Assembly: GCA_023150875.1 (NCBI GenBank)
Contig: JAKLKC010000005.1
Coordinates: 62,001-126,000 of the forward strand
Source: Myxococcota bacterium
GTDB lineage: Bacteria > Myxococcota_A > UBA796 > UBA9615 > JAKLKC01
Direction: 5' to 3'
DNA length: 64,000 bases
The notes beneath the pieces are model-generated. The model was not told where the DNA came from. It searched no databases and was given only the letters and a program-made list of their open reading frames with translations. Positions 37,056 through 44,329 of the stretch are shown piece after piece. A program made the translations under genes and the position numbers. Every line of letters begins with the position of its first letter. Position 1 is the first letter of the stretch.

Positions 37056-37310
37056 ATGGACCGACTCGTCGTCGATGCCTTCGAAGGAGATCTCGCCCGG
37101 GTCGAGCTGGCCCCGGGGCGGGTCCTGGACCTGCCCAGGGCGTGGCTGCCGCGGGCCGCCCGGGAGGGGGACCACGTCGCGGTGGAGGTCGTGTCCGACG
37201 GTACCGTCCGCTTCGCCGTCGACGCCGAGGCCACCGCCAACGCCCGGCGCGGGGCCGGCGACCTGCTGGACAGCGTCGCCGAGGAGCCTCCGGACGACTT
37301 CAGGATATGA
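37056..37310 (+). CDS. DUF3006 family protein
   Basis: An 84-residue protein of the DUF3006 family: MDRLVVDAFEGDLARVEL, LDLPRAWLPRAAREGDHVAV and a C-terminal helix (ANARRGAGDLLDSV). Members are small beta-rich proteins of unknown function that are very often encoded immediately upstream of ComEC-like metallo-beta-lactamase-fold proteins, exactly as here (13 bases to the next gene). A second, lipid-anchored relative sits on the other side of that gene at 38687. Confidence 0.85.
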   Translation: MDRLVVDAFEGDLARVELAPGRVLDLPRAWLPRAAREGDHVAVEVVSDGTVRFAVDAEATANARRGAGDLLDSVAEEPPDDFRI

Positions 37311-37323
37311 GCCGAGGCCCACG

Positions 37324-38529
37324 GTGACGCCGGGCCGCCGCCTCCTCCCCCTCCTGGTCCTGCTGGGTGTCCTGCTGGGCCTGGCGCTCGGGTGCGGCGC
37401 GGCGTTTGCCGGGGAAGCGGAGGCGGAGGCCGCCCCCCTGGTGCTCCACTTCCTGGACGTGGGCCAGGGGGACGCGGTGCTGGTCCGCACCCCCGACGGC
37501 AAGGCGGTCCTGGTGGACGGCGGCAAGCCGGCGGGAGGGGTGGTCCGGCAGCTCGACGCGCTCGGCGTGACGCGCCTGGACCTGCTGATCGCCACCCACG
37601 CCGACTACGACCACATGGGCGCCCACGAGGAGGTCCTGGGGCGGTTCCCGGTGGGCGCCTGGATCACCAACGGCGTGCCCCACACCACCCAGAGCTACCG
37701 CCGCACCGTGGAGCTGGCCGCTCGCCTCGCCCGGGAGGGGCGGCTGAAGGTCTACAAGGCTGGCAGCTTCCGGCCCGGGCAGGACGTGGGCTCCGGGGGG
37801 GTCGGCCTCCACCTCCTGCCCCCCCCGCCGGGGGTCGATCCGGGGGAGCAGAACGTGAACTCGGTGGGGCTGGTGGTCACCTACGGCCCCTTCAAGGCGG
37901 TGCTGACCGGCGACTCCGAGGGGCCCGAGACGGCCGCGTGGCTCGGGATGGATGCCTACGACGGGCTGCTCCGGGACGCCACCGTGCTCAAGGCCACCCA
38001 TCACGGTGCCCGGAACGGGGATCCCGCCACCCCGGGATGGCTGCCCCGCCTGCACCCGGACCTGGTGGCGATCCCCGTGGGCGACAACAACTACGGCCAC
38101 CCGACGCCGGAGGCGCTGGCGGCCTACCGTGCCGTGGGGGCGAGGGTGCTCCGCACCGACCGGGACGGCCGGATCACCGTGCGCGCCTGGCCCGACGGGC
38201 GATACGAAGTGGAGACCGAGCGGGCGCCGGTGGTCACCGGGGGGACCTCCCGGGGAGCCGGACCGCCGCCGCCGCCGGCCGTCTCGCCCCCCGCCCCACT
38301 CCCCTCCCCCGCCGCGCCGCCCGGGGACGGGCCCCCCTCCCCGGGGGGCGCGCCTCCCTCCCCGGACGGGGCCTGCCCCGAGAGCCACCCCATCAAGGGC
38401 AACCGGGGCTCGAAGGGGTGGATCTACCACCTGCCCGGCGGCGCGCACTACGGCCGGACCCGTGCCGAGGAGTGCTTCGCCACCCCCGCCGCGGCCGAGG
38501 CCGGGGGCTATCGCCGCGCGGGGCGCTGA
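37324..38529 (+). CDS. ComEC/Rec2-like metallo-beta-lactamase-fold protein with C-terminal sunset-like domain
   Basis: A 401-residue protein. The N-terminal hydrophobic segment contains ALGC (Cys24), so it may be a lipoprotein or a signal-anchored protein. The metallo-hydrolase core has LHFLDVGQGDAVLVRTPDGKAVLVDGG, the metal motif HADYDH at residues 92-97, LTGDSEG and LKATHHGARNG, as in the hydrolase domain of ComEC (DNA uptake) and in free-standing homologues. A Pro-rich linker (about 305-355) leads to a small terminal domain with CPESHPIKGNRGSKGWIYH, YGRTRAEECFATPAAAEAGGYRRA, a module also found behind secreted nucleases. It may act on extracellular DNA or nucleotides. The start is a GTG at 37324. 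Confidence 0.82.
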   Translation: MTPGRRLLPLLVLLGVLLGLALGCGAAFAGEAEAEAAPLVLHFLDVGQGDAVLVRTPDGKAVLVDGGKPAGGVVRQLDALGVTRLDLLIATHADYDHMGAHEEVLGRFPVGAWITNGVPHTTQSYRRTVELAARLAREGRLKVYKAGSFRPGQDVGSGGVGLHLLPPPPGVDPGEQNVNSVGLVVTYGPFKAVLTGDSEGPETAAWLGMDAYDGLLRDATVLKATHHGARNGDPATPGWLPRLHPDLVAIPVGDNNYGHPTPEALAAYRAVGARVLRTDRDGRITVRAWPDGRYEVETERAPVVTGGTSRGAGPPPPPAVSPPAPLPSPAAPPGDGPPSPGGAPPSPDGACPESHPIKGNRGSKGWIYHLPGGAHYGRTRAEECFATPAAAEAGGYRRAGR

Positions 38530-38686
38530 CGCCGAGCCCGCCCGCCGGCGCCTCCATCACGGCGACCCGCCGGTGTAATGGCGTGTAATGGTCACGGCTG
38601 GAAGCCGCCCGCCCCCGCGCCCACCCTGTCCCCTCGCCCACCACCGCCGATCGCCCGGCCGGTCGAAAGCCACCCGGGGGGAGCCC

Positions 38687-39079
38687 GTGCCCGTCGTCCC
38701 GCCCCACCACCCGCCGCCCCTCCGGCGAACCGCGCCGGTTGTCCCCCTCGCCCTCGCCGTGGCCCTCGGCGCCTGCGCGGCCGGCCAGCACCCGTCTCCG
38801 GGGCGGTCCATCTCCCGGCCCGCCGCCTGCCCCGGGGCCTTGGGGGCGGCGGTGGACGGCATCGAGGGGTCCTGGGCGCGGGTGGAGGTGGCCGGCGGAC
38901 CCGTCCTGGACCTCCCCCGCTCCTGGCTCCCCCGGGGTGCCCGGGAGGGCAGCCGCCTGTGCGCGCGGAGCGCCGGTGGGGGCGGGATCCTCCTCGTCCT
39001 GGACCGCCGATCCGCGGCGAGCGCCCGGGAGGGGGCCCGCCGCCTCCTGGACGGCGCCGCCCGGTCCCCGACTCCTCGT
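38687..39079 (+). CDS. DUF3006-like lipoprotein, 3' end unresolved
   Basis: From the GTG at 38687 (GGGGGAG upstream) this frame encodes a lipoprotein signal peptide with lipobox LGAC (Cys30), a short linker, and then a clear relative of the DUF3006 protein at 37056: VDGIEGSWARVEVAGGPVLDLPRSWLPRGAREGS, ending with the helix SAREGARRLLDGAA. The homology stops near 39070, but no stop codon follows: the frame stays open through the whole antisense gene (39080-39616) and beyond, and the other two plus frames also lack a nearby stop. I end the feature at the last base before the opposing gene's stop. A lost or mis-assembled stop codon, or a genuine long antisense read-through, are both possible. 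Confidence 0.5.
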
Positions 39080-39616
39080 TCAGCCCAAGGCGCGCCGGGC
39101 GATCCCCCCCGCCACGAAGGCCACGGCGGCGGCGAGGGCCGCGATCCCGATCATCTCCAGGGCGCTGCGCCAGCGGGAGCGGTGGACGAAGGGGGCCCTC
39201 ACGATCCCCGCCGCCCCGAGGGCGAGGGCGGCCAGGACCACGGCCATGCCCAGGACCCCCAGCCCCGGGGGCCGGGGGAGGACGTAGGCGAACAGGGGCG
39301 CGGCCCCCACGACGACGAAGGCGGCGAGGGTGGCGAGCCCGTGGCGCAGGGGCTTCTCCAGGACCACCGATCCGCCCCCCTGCTCGATCTCCGACTTGAT
39401 CCCGAGGAAGTTGCTCGCCCCCATGGAGATCCCGTCGGCGAAGAGGTTGGCGATCCCCAGGATCAGGCCGACATCGGCGGGGAGGGAGGCGCCCGACGCG
39501 CCCGCGACCACCGCCAGGGTGGTGATCACCCCGTCCACCGCTCCGTAGACCATGTCCCGGAGGTAGTGTCCGAAGCCCCGGTCGGGCCTGCCGGGGCGGG
39601 TGGCGGCCTCGTCCAA
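39080..39616 (-). CDS. VIT1/CCC1-family membrane transporter
   Basis: A 178-residue integral membrane protein. The signature YLRDMVYGAVDGVITTLAVVAGASGA is that of the VIT1/CCC1 (DUF125) family, iron/manganese transporters that export or sequester the metal; GISMGASNFLGIKSE is the matching second motif. About four to five helices follow, including FVVVGAAPLFAYVLP and a C-terminal ALEMIGIAALAAAVAFVAGGIARRALG. It lacks the ferritin-like domain of some bacterial members. I chose the TTG at 39614-39616 (GGAAGG five bases upstream), since the extended N-terminus in this frame is Arg/Pro-rich and overlaps the divergent gene's promoter region. Confidence 0.8.
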   Translation of the reverse strand: MDEAATRPGRPDRGFGHYLRDMVYGAVDGVITTLAVVAGASGASLPADVGLILGIANLFADGISMGASNFLGIKSEIEQGGGSVVLEKPLRHGLATLAAFVVVGAAPLFAYVLPRPPGLGVLGMAVVLAALALGAAGIVRAPFVHRSRWRSALEMIGIAALAAAVAFVAGGIARRALG

Positions 39617-39746
39617 CCCGTCCTTCCCTCCCCGCCCCCTCTCCCGCGGGGCCGCCGGGATCGGCCTGCAACCCCGGGACCGGACCGCCCCCTCGGCCGC
39701 ATACCCACGCTGTGGTACCCTCGCGGCACGGGAGGGAGCGCCGGAC

Positions 39747-40751
39747 ATGATCGCGAAACGGGCCGTCGGAGCAGGGGGATCGCCGGAGCACCCGGGGGTG
39801 GAGGGCCGAGACCGGTCCATCGACCCGGTGTGGGACGGGCGCCCGTCGCGGATCGAGACCTGGTACGCCACCTGGACCGAACCCGCCACGGGGACCGGCT
39901 TCTGGCTGCACCACGAGGTGGTCGCCCCGCCCCGGGGGGAGGCGATCTCCCAGGGCTGGGCAGCGGTCTTCCCCCCCGGGGAGGCGCCGGTGGTGGAACG
40001 CTTCGGCCCCGAGGCGGCGGTCCATCCCGTGCCGGAGGGGACCCTGTTCGACTCCCGGGCCGCCCGGGCCTCCCGCGGGCTCCTGGAGGGGCGGACGGAG
40101 GGGCTCTCGTGGCGCCTGGAGTACGCCGACGCGGGGGCGGCGCTGCGGCCCTTTCCGCCCTGGACCTTCGGCCGGGAGTGGTTCCCCGGCAGCCAGGTGG
40201 CCTCCTACCCCACCGCCCGCTTCTCTGGCACCTTCGGGGTGGGCCCCCGAACCTTCGACCTCCAGGACGCGCCCGGCGCCATGTCCCACATCTACGCCCA
40301 CGGCCACGCCCACGGCTGGACCTGGCTCCACGCGGACCTGGGGGGTGGAGACGCCCTGGAGATCGTCGCCGCGCGCCCCCAGCGGGCCGCCCTGCGGTGG
40401 CTCCCGGTCCTGACCTTCGCCCGCCTCAGGGTGGGGGGGCGCGACTGGCCCCGGGACCCGGCGCGGTCGGTCCTGGGCATGCGGACGCGGCCGGGGCTGC
40501 CCCGTTGGACCACCCGCGGCCGCGCGGGGGACCTGGAGCTGGACGTGGAGGTGGAGGTGCCGGACGCGGCCTCCGTCACCCTGGCCTACCACGACCCCGA
40601 CGGCACCCCGGCGTGGTGCACCAACAGCGAGAGGGCGTCCGCGACCGTCCGGGCCAAGGGCCCCTTCGGCGAGCGCACCTGGCGCCTGGACGGGACGGCC
40701 CACGCCGAGGTGGGCACGAGGACGCCGCCGCCGGGGCGGGTGGTGTACTGA
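39747..40751 (+). CDS. Lipocalin-like (AttH/CrtC or tocopherol-cyclase-like) protein
   Basis: A 334-residue soluble protein rich in Trp, Gly and His. Landmarks: PVWDGRPSRIETWYATWTEPATGTGFWLHHEV, LEYADAGAALRPFPPW, FGVGPRTFDLQDAPGAMSHIYAHGHAHGWTWLHADLGGGDALEIVAARP (landmarks HIYAHGHAHGWTWLHAD). This wording resembles the double-lipocalin families AttH/CrtC (carotenoid hydration) and tocopherol cyclase, which act on hydrophobic ring or polyene substrates. Assignment is tentative, as I rely on a few segments. The ATG at 39747 follows GGGAGGGAG. It is convergent with a methyltransferase gene four bases away. Confidence 0.55.
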   Translation: MIAKRAVGAGGSPEHPGVEGRDRSIDPVWDGRPSRIETWYATWTEPATGTGFWLHHEVVAPPRGEAISQGWAAVFPPGEAPVVERFGPEAAVHPVPEGTLFDSRAARASRGLLEGRTEGLSWRLEYADAGAALRPFPPWTFGREWFPGSQVASYPTARFSGTFGVGPRTFDLQDAPGAMSHIYAHGHAHGWTWLHADLGGGDALEIVAARPQRAALRWLPVLTFARLRVGGRDWPRDPARSVLGMRTRPGLPRWTTRGRAGDLELDVEVEVPDAASVTLAYHDPDGTPAWCTNSERASATVRAKGPFGERTWRLDGTAHAEVGTRTPPPGRVVY

Positions 40752-40755
40752 ACGC

Positions 40756-41433
40756 CTACTCGACCCGCTCCGCCGCCAGCCGCCAGCCCAGCCCCGACAG
40801 GGTCTCCTCGCAACCGATCACCCGCAGGCCGGCCCCCTCGACGAGGGCCACCAGGCCCTGGGCGGTGAAGCGGCCCTCCACGCCGCTGGCGAGGCGCCAC
40901 AGCATCATCGACAGGGCGAAGCGGGGATCCCGGGAGAGGGCCTCCACCGGGGCGAACCGGCCGCCGCGCCGGGGCTCCAGGAGCACCAGCCGCCCCCCCG
41001 GGCGGAGCACCCGCCGCACCTCCGACAGCACCTTGCCCCGCTCGGGCACCAGGTACAGGAACGAGTGGCCGGTGGCGGCGTCGAAGCTCCCGTCCGGGAA
41101 GGGCAGGGCCCGGGCGTCCCCCTGGACCAGCTCGATCCGCTCCCGGGCCGGCGACGCCGAGACCCGGGGACGGGCCCGGGCCAGCATCCCCGGGCTGTAG
41201 TCCAGGCCCACCACCCGCAGCAGGGGATCCGCCTCGGCCAGGGCGATGGCGGACACCGCCGGCCCCGTCCCCAGGTCGATGAGGCGACGGCCCGGCTGCC
41301 CGTCGCCCCCGGCCCCCTCGGGGAAGTGCCGCGCCAGGCCGCGGATGTGGTCGCGCCAGATCTCCTGGGCGGTCATCCAGTCGTACAGCGGCGCCCCCAG
41401 GTCAAAGGCCCGCGCGCCCAGGATCCGAGCCAT
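40756..41433 (-). CDS. Class I SAM-dependent methyltransferase
   Basis: A 225-residue cytoplasmic enzyme of the UbiE-like small-molecule methyltransferase type. Motif I is RLIDLGTGPAVSAIALAE, the acidic end of strand 2 is VVGLDYSPGMLARAR, motif post-I is LVQGDARALPFPDGSFDAATGHSFLYLV, and motif III is EVRRVLRPGGRLVLLEPRRG. The C-terminal part is a helix plus the substrate lid (LVALVEGAGLRVIGCEE). The substrate cannot be deduced; it lies between the lipocalin-like gene and a MopE lipoprotein. Confidence 0.82.
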   Translation of the reverse strand: MARILGARAFDLGAPLYDWMTAQEIWRDHIRGLARHFPEGAGGDGQPGRRLIDLGTGPAVSAIALAEADPLLRVVGLDYSPGMLARARPRVSASPARERIELVQGDARALPFPDGSFDAATGHSFLYLVPERGKVLSEVRRVLRPGGRLVLLEPRRGGRFAPVEALSRDPRFALSMMLWRLASGVEGRFTAQGLVALVEGAGLRVIGCEETLSGLGWRLAAERVE

Positions 41434-41455: not shown

Positions 41456-44212
41456 TCAGCAGCCCGCCCCCGGCAGTACCGCCGGGTCCGAGTCGTCGCA
41501 GTCGCCGCACCGGTCCGTCCACCCGTCCCCGTCCAGGTCGTCTCCGGAGTCGACGCAGAACAGCACGCCCCGGTGGTCCAGGTCGAAGGGGTCGGCCCCT
41601 GCCGTGAACACCTCGTAGACCGCCCCCTCGGTACCCCGCCCCACCCCCAGCGAGCCCGGCGCCGCGACCGCCGCCGAGAGGTCGGTCTCCGGCACCGTGC
41701 CCCCCGGGGTGCAGCTCCACCCCACCAGGCCGTCGCTGGCCGCCACCGAGCCGAAGTGGGCCGACAGGCGGCCGTCGGCGCGGAACACCAGGGTGAAGGT
41801 GTTCTCGTCCGCGGGGTTGAGCTGCGACACCTCGATGAAGTGGACCGACACCGCGTCCTCGTGCTGCACCCAGGCGATGGTGCCCGTGTCCCCCTTCAGG
41901 TCGTCCCACAGGCCGGCGACACTGTCCACCTCGGTGGTGCTCAGGAACTCCGACGAGGACTCGCTGTAGTCGGTGTCGATCCCATTGAAGGTGACGCGCC
42001 CGTTGGAGATCACCCAGCCCGAGGCGTGGTCCGCCCCGCAGAAGGGGAAGCGGAAGCCGCCGACGAAGACCATCTCCCCCGCCGTGTCGTCCCCCAGCAT
42101 GTCGAGGACGACGGGGAGTTCGGGGTCGTCGCCGTCGATGGCGCCGTCGCAGTCGTCGTCCAGGCCGTTGGCGTCGTCCTCCCAGGCGTAGGGGTAGACG
42201 GCGGGGTCCGCGTCGTCGCAGTCCCCGTCGCAGGCGGGGATCCCGTCGCCGTCGAGGTCGGAGCCGTCGACCGTGGGATCGGTGTCGTCGCAGTCCCCGT
42301 CGCAGGCGCTCTGGCCATCGCCATCGGCGTCCAGGCCGTGGACGGCGGGATCGGTATCATCGCAGTCGTTCCCCCCGCAGGAGGCGGCGTCGTCGCCGTC
42401 CCCGTCGGAGTCGGCCAGGAGGTCGGGATCGTCCCCGTCCACCGCGCCGTCGCAGTCCTGGTCGACGCCGTCGCAGGTCTCGGCTGCCCCGGGGTGGATC
42501 GAGGCCGCCAGGTCGTCGCAGTCCCCGCCACAGGCGGTGGTGCCGTCGCCGTCGAGGTCGGCGCCCCCGTCCTCGTCCACGGCGCCGTCGCAGTCGTCGT
42601 CCACCCCGTCGCACCCCTCGGGGGCTCCGGGGCGGCGGTCGGGATCGGCGTCGTCGCAGTCGCCGCCGCAGGTCGCGTAGCCGTCTCCGTCGGCGTCGAA
42701 GCCCTCGTCCACGCCTCCTTCGCAGTCGTCGTCCACGCCGTTGCACGTCTCCGCCGCGTCGGGGTTCACCGCCGCGGACCCATCGTCGCAGTCGCCGCCA
42801 CAGGTCGTGTAACCGTCCCCGTCGGCGTCGTAGCCCTCGTCCACGGCGCCGTCGCAGTCGTCGTCCCTCCCGTCGCACGACTCGGTGCGCCCGGGGTTGG
42901 TGCCGGGACGGGTGTCGTCGCAGTCCCCCCCGCAGGTGGTGTATCCGTCCCCGTCGACGTCGTGCCCCTCGTCCACGACGTCGTCACAGTCCTGGTCCAC
43001 TCCGTCGCACGCCTCCGCCCGGCCGGGGTAGAGGTCGGGATCGGCGTCGTCGCAGTCGCCGTTGCACACGGTGACGCCGTCCCCGTCGACGTCGTGCCCG
43101 TCGTCCACCGCGCCGTCGCAGTCGTCGTCCCGCCCGTTGCACGTCTCGGTCGCGCCGGGGAAGACCAGGTTCCGCGCGTCGTCGCAGTCCCCCCCGCAGG
43201 TGGTGTATCCGTCTCCGTCGGCGTCGAAGCCCTCGTCCACCGCGGCGTCGCAGTCCTGGTCCACCCCGTCGCAGACCTCCGCCGCGCCGGGCCGGATCCC
43301 GGGGTCGGCGTCGTCGCAGTCGGTGTCGCAGGCGTAGCCGTCTCCGTCCCCGTCCAGGCCGTCGTCCACCACCCCGTCGCAGTCATCGTCGATGCCGTCG
43401 CAGGTCTCGACCGCGCCAGGGTTTGTCGACGCGGTGCCGTCGTCGCAGTCGCCGCCGCAGGTCGTGTATCCGTCTCCGTCGGCGTCGAAGCCCTCGTCCA
43501 CCGCGCCGTCGCAGTCGTCGTCCCGGCCGTCGCACGTCTCGGCCACGCCGGGGTTCGCCGCCGCCGCGGCGTCGTCGCAGTCCCCCCCGCAGGTCGTGTA
43601 TCCGTCCCCGTCCTCGTCGAAGCCGTCGTCGACGGTGCCGTCGCAGTCCTGGTCCACCCCGTCGCACGTCTCCGCCGCCCCGGGGGCGATGTCGGACCTC
43701 CCGTCGTGGCAGTCCCCCTCGCACGGCGTGTATCCGTCTCCGTCGGTGTCCAGGTCCGTCCCCTCGTCGACCTCGCCGTCGCAGTCGTCATCCCGGCTGT
43801 TGCACTGCTCCGGCGCGTCGTCGTGGACCGCGGGATCGCCGTCGTCGCAGTCGCCGGCGATCTCGCCGGGGCACGACGCGTCGTCCAGGTGGCCGTCGCC
43901 GTCCCCGTCGAAGTCCTCGTCCACGAGGCCGTCGCAGTCGTCGTCCCGGGTGTTGCACTCCTCGGGGGCGCCCGGGTACACCTCCGCGCGGTCGTCGTTG
44001 CAGTCCACGTCCGAGGTGTAGCCGTCTCCGTCCCGGTCGTCGGGGGAGACGTCGTCGTCGGCCGTGTCGTCGTCGGCCGTGTCGTCGTCGGCGGCGGTGT
44101 CGTCGTCCTGGGTGGCGTCGTCGTCGTCGGCCTGCGGGGTGGGCGCGCACGCGGCGAGGAGCAGGAGCGCCAGCAGGGGCGTCAGCGGTCCGGTCGTTCG
44201 GCGTGGGGACAT
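41456..44212 (-). CDS. Large MopE-repeat lipoprotein with DDDT linker
   Basis: A 918-residue lipoprotein: lipobox LAAC (Cys22), an acidic stalk of DDDAT/DDDTA units (residues about 28-53), then about fifteen MopE-type repeats between residues 55 and 690, most of the strict form DxDGDGYTTCGGDCDD...PGxxETCDGxDDDCDGxVDEG. A beta-sandwich of about 170 residues follows (FVGGFRFPFCGADHASGWVISNGRVTFNG, GTIAWVQHEDAVSVHFIEVSQL), reminiscent of nidogen-like or PEP-CTERM-style outer domains, and a last repeat ends the chain (LDGDGWTDRCGDCDDSDPAVLPG). The ATG at 44210-44212 follows GGAGCATCG. It probably binds many calcium ions at the surface; ligand unknown. Confidence 0.82.
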   Translation of the reverse strand: MSPRRTTGPLTPLLALLLLAACAPTPQADDDDATQDDDTAADDDTADDDTADDDVSPDDRDGDGYTSDVDCNDDRAEVYPGAPEECNTRDDDCDGLVDEDFDGDGDGHLDDASCPGEIAGDCDDGDPAVHDDAPEQCNSRDDDCDGEVDEGTDLDTDGDGYTPCEGDCHDGRSDIAPGAAETCDGVDQDCDGTVDDGFDEDGDGYTTCGGDCDDAAAAANPGVAETCDGRDDDCDGAVDEGFDADGDGYTTCGGDCDDGTASTNPGAVETCDGIDDDCDGVVDDGLDGDGDGYACDTDCDDADPGIRPGAAEVCDGVDQDCDAAVDEGFDADGDGYTTCGGDCDDARNLVFPGATETCNGRDDDCDGAVDDGHDVDGDGVTVCNGDCDDADPDLYPGRAEACDGVDQDCDDVVDEGHDVDGDGYTTCGGDCDDTRPGTNPGRTESCDGRDDDCDGAVDEGYDADGDGYTTCGGDCDDGSAAVNPDAAETCNGVDDDCEGGVDEGFDADGDGYATCGGDCDDADPDRRPGAPEGCDGVDDDCDGAVDEDGGADLDGDGTTACGGDCDDLAASIHPGAAETCDGVDQDCDGAVDGDDPDLLADSDGDGDDAASCGGNDCDDTDPAVHGLDADGDGQSACDGDCDDTDPTVDGSDLDGDGIPACDGDCDDADPAVYPYAWEDDANGLDDDCDGAIDGDDPELPVVLDMLGDDTAGEMVFVGGFRFPFCGADHASGWVISNGRVTFNGIDTDYSESSSEFLSTTEVDSVAGLWDDLKGDTGTIAWVQHEDAVSVHFIEVSQLNPADENTFTLVFRADGRLSAHFGSVAASDGLVGWSCTPGGTVPETDLSAAVAAPGSLGVGRGTEGAVYEVFTAGADPFDLDHRGVLFCVDSGDDLDGDGWTDRCGDCDDSDPAVLPGAGC

Positions 44213-44329
44213 CGATGCTCCGGTGCGGGCCGCCCGGGGGGCGGGGGACAGGGGCACGGCGGCGATGGGAGGATAGACTACCCCGGCCCACCGGGGGGAG
44301 CGCGACGGCCGGCGTCCGGACGATCCCGT

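Follow-up and report, generated by a model that had tools for sequence, protein, structure and literature searches.

Within the window, the 64,000-nucleotide stretch of a Myxococcota contig analysed here, a short gene encoding a putative DUF3006 lipoprotein has no stop codon at its end and its frame continues into a convergent VIT-family gene (Table 1). We consider it very probable that this gene lost its stop in the present sequence, by substitution, by a small loss at the 3' end or by a consensus error, and that the run-on is passive. The case looks like an ordinary stop loss or sequence error, not like a new fused protein. The natural gene would extend from 38687 to about 39053-39090 and its 3' end would abut that of the VIT gene. 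Past this natural end, the frame lies codon-on-codon antisense to VIT, so that a stop would require one of the codons TTA, CTA or TCA in VIT, which this genome of 75% GC almost never uses; it then follows a usually open shifted frame of a plus-strand gene and ends in the methyltransferase gene. The extension is probably not a selected protein, and ribosomes that enter it would be freed by tmRNA, or else their product would be degraded.

Table 1. Features around the lipoprotein gene, in positions of the window.
Feature	Position	Strand	Evidence
DUF3006 protein, intact paralogue with its own stop	37056-37310	+	PF11213, E 8.7e-14, 51.9 bits
ComEC/Rec2-like metallo-beta-lactamase-fold protein with C-terminal "sunset" domain	37324-38529	+	PF00753, E 3.2e-10
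DUF3006 lipoprotein gene (putative), GTG start, without a stop at its end	38687-39079	+	PF11213; BLASTP; coding signal 38741-39061
Run-on of the lipoprotein frame	39080-41200	+	Judged non-coding: no Pfam match, low coding score, openness explained by phase
VIT-family gene, convergent	39080-39622	-	PF01988, E 2.1e-27; 5' limit provisional
Gene in another plus frame, crossed by the run-on	39747-40751	+	Coding signal 39786-40712
Methyltransferase gene, where the run-on finally stops	40756-41433	-	PF08241, E 8.5e-23; coding signal 40759-41424

The absence of the stop is a direct observation. When stops were listed by frame, the first one in the frame started by GTG 38687 was TAG 41198, and the upstream limit of this open frame (mod 2) was TAA 38576. 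Downstream of 39079, the first stops of the two remaining plus frames are TAG 39285 and TGA 39397. The initial annotation had described a lipoprotein frame that lacks a stop and stays open far into the opposing gene, and no stop in any plus frame for over 200 bases after about 39070; both descriptions agree with these positions. As one of three options, it had further proposed that an indel or mutation erased the stop. Stop loss as such is supported, but a one-base indel was rejected as the sole cause because there is no stop near 39080 in any plus frame, the other two staying open for more than 200 bases beyond it. A base substitution, a larger 3' loss or a consensus fault could explain the missing stop.

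The relationship proposed for the product, a DUF3006-like lipoprotein homologous to the one encoded at 37056, was borne out. BlastP aligned the two proteins with 36 of 73 residues identical (49%, E 4e-21), and the 37056 copy is a clear DUF3006 member. In the translated stretch, the PF11213 match of the lipoprotein covers residues 55-122 (E 5e-07) and scores 30.3 bits against a curated cut-off of 32.3, and a profile search of the bacterium's own genome gave 32.9 bits, above this cut-off. Inspected by eye, the N-terminus RRTAPVVPLALAVALGAC presents the features of bacterial lipoproteins, namely a charged n-region, a hydrophobic stretch and, following it, a lipobox-like LGAC with its cysteine; the product of the 38687 gene is thus a putative lipoprotein. 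A ribosome-binding-like stretch, ggggggag, was also seen by eye upstream of the GTG. The ComEC-like gene sits between the two DUF3006 copies.

Codon usage served to segment 798,881 bases of the same assembly, taken as 40 stretches, with a model in which coding signal is free to end without a stop. The signal of the lipoprotein gene, which starts at 38741, closes at 39061, and the antisense signal of VIT occupies 39098-39625. The stop codon of VIT is 39080-39082, and the lipoprotein frame is aligned codon for codon with the VIT gene. The 3' end of VIT looks natural, since one homologue from the class aligns with the protein up to residue 179 of 180. Further along the run-on, the product of the 39747-40751 gene has no family match in Pfam or NCBIfam, despite a clear coding signal.

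We then compared the 3' end of the lipoprotein gene with those of its relatives. In the 37056 copy, the stop comes 11 codons past the DUF3006 match. All of the 30 best-scoring other DUF3006 loci, which include this copy and are homologues rather than orthologues, have a stop between 5 and 58 codons downstream of the match (median 12), whereas the lipoprotein frame reaches the end of its fetched locus, 500 codons on, without one. Judged against these 30 homologues, not against orthologues, it is longer at its 3' end, and by the same comparison its missing stop is unusual. Of 20 further DUF3006 loci, mostly partial and ending near profile position 41, 19 have a stop 4-121 codons downstream of it, while one reaches the contig end without a stop; by eye, no second clear lipoprotein was found among them in the 30-60 residues upstream. 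A second DUF3006 match, mostly partial and often following a short hydrophobic N-terminus as seen by eye, occurs in many genomes of the class. Because the coding signal ends at 39061 and DUF3006 homologues stop soon after the match, a stop would be expected near 39080 in the lipoprotein gene. That one was lost is suggested by the paralogue and by these distant homologues.

Genome searches revealed no orthologue or close relative showing the original stop. A search of 58 genomes with the lipoprotein, its own included, gave matches in six, the other five being weak (best E 1.1e-4). At the DNA level, the seven genomes of the order, own included, yielded short matches in four of the six others and none across most of the query. 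A GTDB genome scan found no relative with the lipoprotein as query and one distant locus only with VIT. A literature search on DUF3006 found no paper in the library covered.

Given a missing stop, codon bias accounts for how long the run-on is. Past 39079, the codons of the lipoprotein frame are the reverse complements of VIT codons. A stop in this frame would need TTA, CTA or TCA on the opposite strand; these are rare here, together making up 0.055% of codons, so the antisense frame stays open. The effect of phase was measured directly on 540 coding segments of the same assembly, each of at least 400 bases. The codon-aligned antisense phase was wholly open in 452 of the 540, against 27 and 16 for the other two antisense phases. 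Where the run-on crosses the 39747 gene, it follows a sense-shifted frame of a class wholly open in 349 of the 540 segments, against 7 for the other shift. Since both phases are mostly open by codon bias, a long run-on is no surprise. Its openness is passive and results from the codon bias that keeps stops out of the neighbouring genes.

A protein genuinely lengthened by antisense-encoded sequence, to as many as 837 residues, as the initial annotation had allowed, has the open frame in its favour, and such openness is expected from codon bias. No Pfam family matched the 706 codons of the run-on at E<=1. Coding signal moves from the lipoprotein gene to VIT, next to the plus gene, which uses a different frame, and finally to the methyltransferase gene; per-codon scores of the run-on were -0.16, -0.66 and 0.02, versus 0.42 for VIT, 0.25 for the plus gene and 0.40 for the methyltransferase gene. 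A genuine antisense overlapping gene is recognized by coding signal, domain or conservation, and the run-on showed neither signal nor domain. We therefore regard a genuine extension as highly improbable.

A different possibility is a gene programmed to lack a stop. In E. coli, ArfA is controlled by mRNA cleavage or termination before the stop, plus trans-translation. The genome studied here does carry a tmRNA (160.9 bits), which makes ribosome rescue possible. However, a simple consensus scan of 38400-40000 detected no terminator-like site (0.2 expected in shuffles), and the RNA of 39030-39180 folded no better than its shuffles (z +1.89), 194 of the 200 being as stable or more so, so that neither a terminator-like site nor a structured RNA end was found; no conserved counterpart was found either in the 58 genomes or in the GTDB scan with the lipoprotein. 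An ArfA-like programmed gene is scarcely credible on these grounds. The same very low probability is given to a naturally stopless lipoprotein gene in which ribosomes running antisense into VIT would always be rescued by trans-translation, so that either the rescue system or VIT transcription would determine how much product is made.

Returning to loss of the stop as the favoured explanation, two of its branches differ in what happened. In the first, which is compatible with that explanation and in which the assembly error considered by the initial annotation would be the whole cause, only the sequencing or assembly is at fault and living cells would carry a normal stop near 39080. The assembly is a draft of 180 contigs, and its other run-ons were surveyed with the same segmentation. 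At the standard setting, the lipoprotein gene is one of 12 segments, out of 616 with a stop in reach, whose frame stays open for more than 500 bases beyond the coding signal. Among the 218 members of 109 convergent pairs, three do so, the lipoprotein gene again being one; the other two are a kinase fragment that enters its neighbour and a gene whose ending can be seen to carry on in a different frame. These counts depend on the segmentation penalty: at 6, 9 and 13, runs of more than 500 bases were found in 22/637, 12/621 and 8/602 segments, and in 4/220, 3/218 and 3/218 convergent members, with a codon table one round later than in the main survey, hence 621 instead of 620 segments.

The other 11 outliers were examined by eye. 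Eight look like a single gene continuing in the same frame, in seven cases across proline-rich stretches and in the eighth (C158:76235) with a deviating codon usage. Two, C125:75432-75977 (-) and C169:33163-34110 (+), show frame shifts near the end or in the middle of the gene, with a natural-looking continuation in another frame. The last, C92:12160-12786 (-), is a kinase-like fragment whose frame extends about 1 kb antisense into a convergent neighbour. The lipoprotein gene is thus not alone in this assembly in missing its end, although such cases are uncommon, and some of them are frame shifts, due either to errors or to true decay. The frame shifts visible in at least two of the 11 lend some weight to a pure error. 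However, they may themselves be errors or true decay, and at the lipoprotein gene a substitution or a larger fault would be needed, there being no plus-frame stop near 39080. We hold a pure error to be a serious possibility, somewhat short of an even chance.

In the second branch, the gene is a decaying duplicate, a pseudogene related to the 37056 gene, and its stop was no longer maintained. The coding signal of the lipoprotein gene is weak and the gene itself may be decaying: per-codon scores were 0.02 over the first 28 codons (38687-38769), -0.11 over 38770-38850 and 0.26 over 38851-39052, falling to -0.78 over the last 27 bases before VIT (39053-39079), a short stretch, and the segment was not called at the strictest penalty (13). 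By eye, many homologues end in a D-[FI]-[DE]-L-like motif that is absent from its C-terminus, and no DUF3006 match at E<=0.01 was found in the other six genomes of the order. Against decay, the start, the ribosome-binding-like stretch, the signal-like N-terminus and the DUF3006 domain are unbroken over 393 bases, and third-position GC is 0.92-0.95 in windows starting at 38636-38834, then 0.85 in the one from 38933. Decay of a duplicate is a tentative reading, rather unlikely and less favoured than a pure error.

The 38687 case appears to belong to a class already described, in which stop loss or a 3' frameshift extends one gene of a convergent pair. PMC2478687 counts 178 convergent overlaps longer than 60 bp, assigns 124 of them to this class and considers the remaining 54 as possibly true; stop loss into a convergent neighbour is treated there as a known cause of long overlaps. 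As in the category iii overlaps of that paper, which arise when stop loss or a frameshift lengthens a gene at its 3' end, one gene is longer at its 3' end than its homologues. The present case differs in its 2.1 kb run-on over three genes, lengthened by very high GC, and in being judged against a paralogue and distant homologues instead of orthologues. The excerpted text of PMC2174442 also derives overlaps from stop-codon mutation, with a phase that depends on codon bias, and states that opposite-strand phases need further selective hypotheses. The likeness with its phase 123:321 overlaps lies in a lost stop followed by read-through into a complementary gene, where codon bias and phase set the chance of a new stop; however, selection is invoked there for opposite-strand overlaps, and none is evidenced for the lipoprotein/VIT overlap. 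PMC3454372, in the portion relevant here, credits Merino 1994 with antisense open frames caused by codon usage, and its reference list contains Silke 1997, which by its title concerns the same effect. Frames of this type resemble ours in that the codon-aligned antisense frame is open as TTA, CTA and TCA are rare; what sets the present frame apart is that it continues a real coding region lying upstream.

The significance of this case is mostly for annotation. According to the relevant part of PMC2848648, Prodigal tolerates an opposite-strand overlap of 200 bp between 3' ends; because of this limit, it would be expected to drop or cut the lipoprotein gene. In GC-rich drafts, an absent stop can produce spectacular open frames of little meaning, and a phase control such as the count of wholly open aligned antisense frames given above is a quick way to spot them.

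Two neighbouring proteins gave further observations. The ComEC-like protein has a partial match to TIGR00361 (E 4e-19, below cut-off) and one above cut-off to NF051437 (E 3.8e-15), the "sunset" domain, at residues 357-400 (38392-38523, +). NCBIfam lists this short C-terminal domain also on several ribosomal proteins, and a literature search on "sunset domain" yielded one paper, on another subject judging by its title. Downstream, 41456-44257 (-) encodes a long protein of DGDGYTTCGGDCDD-type repeats, which presumably resemble those of putative metal- or calcium-binding repeat proteins.
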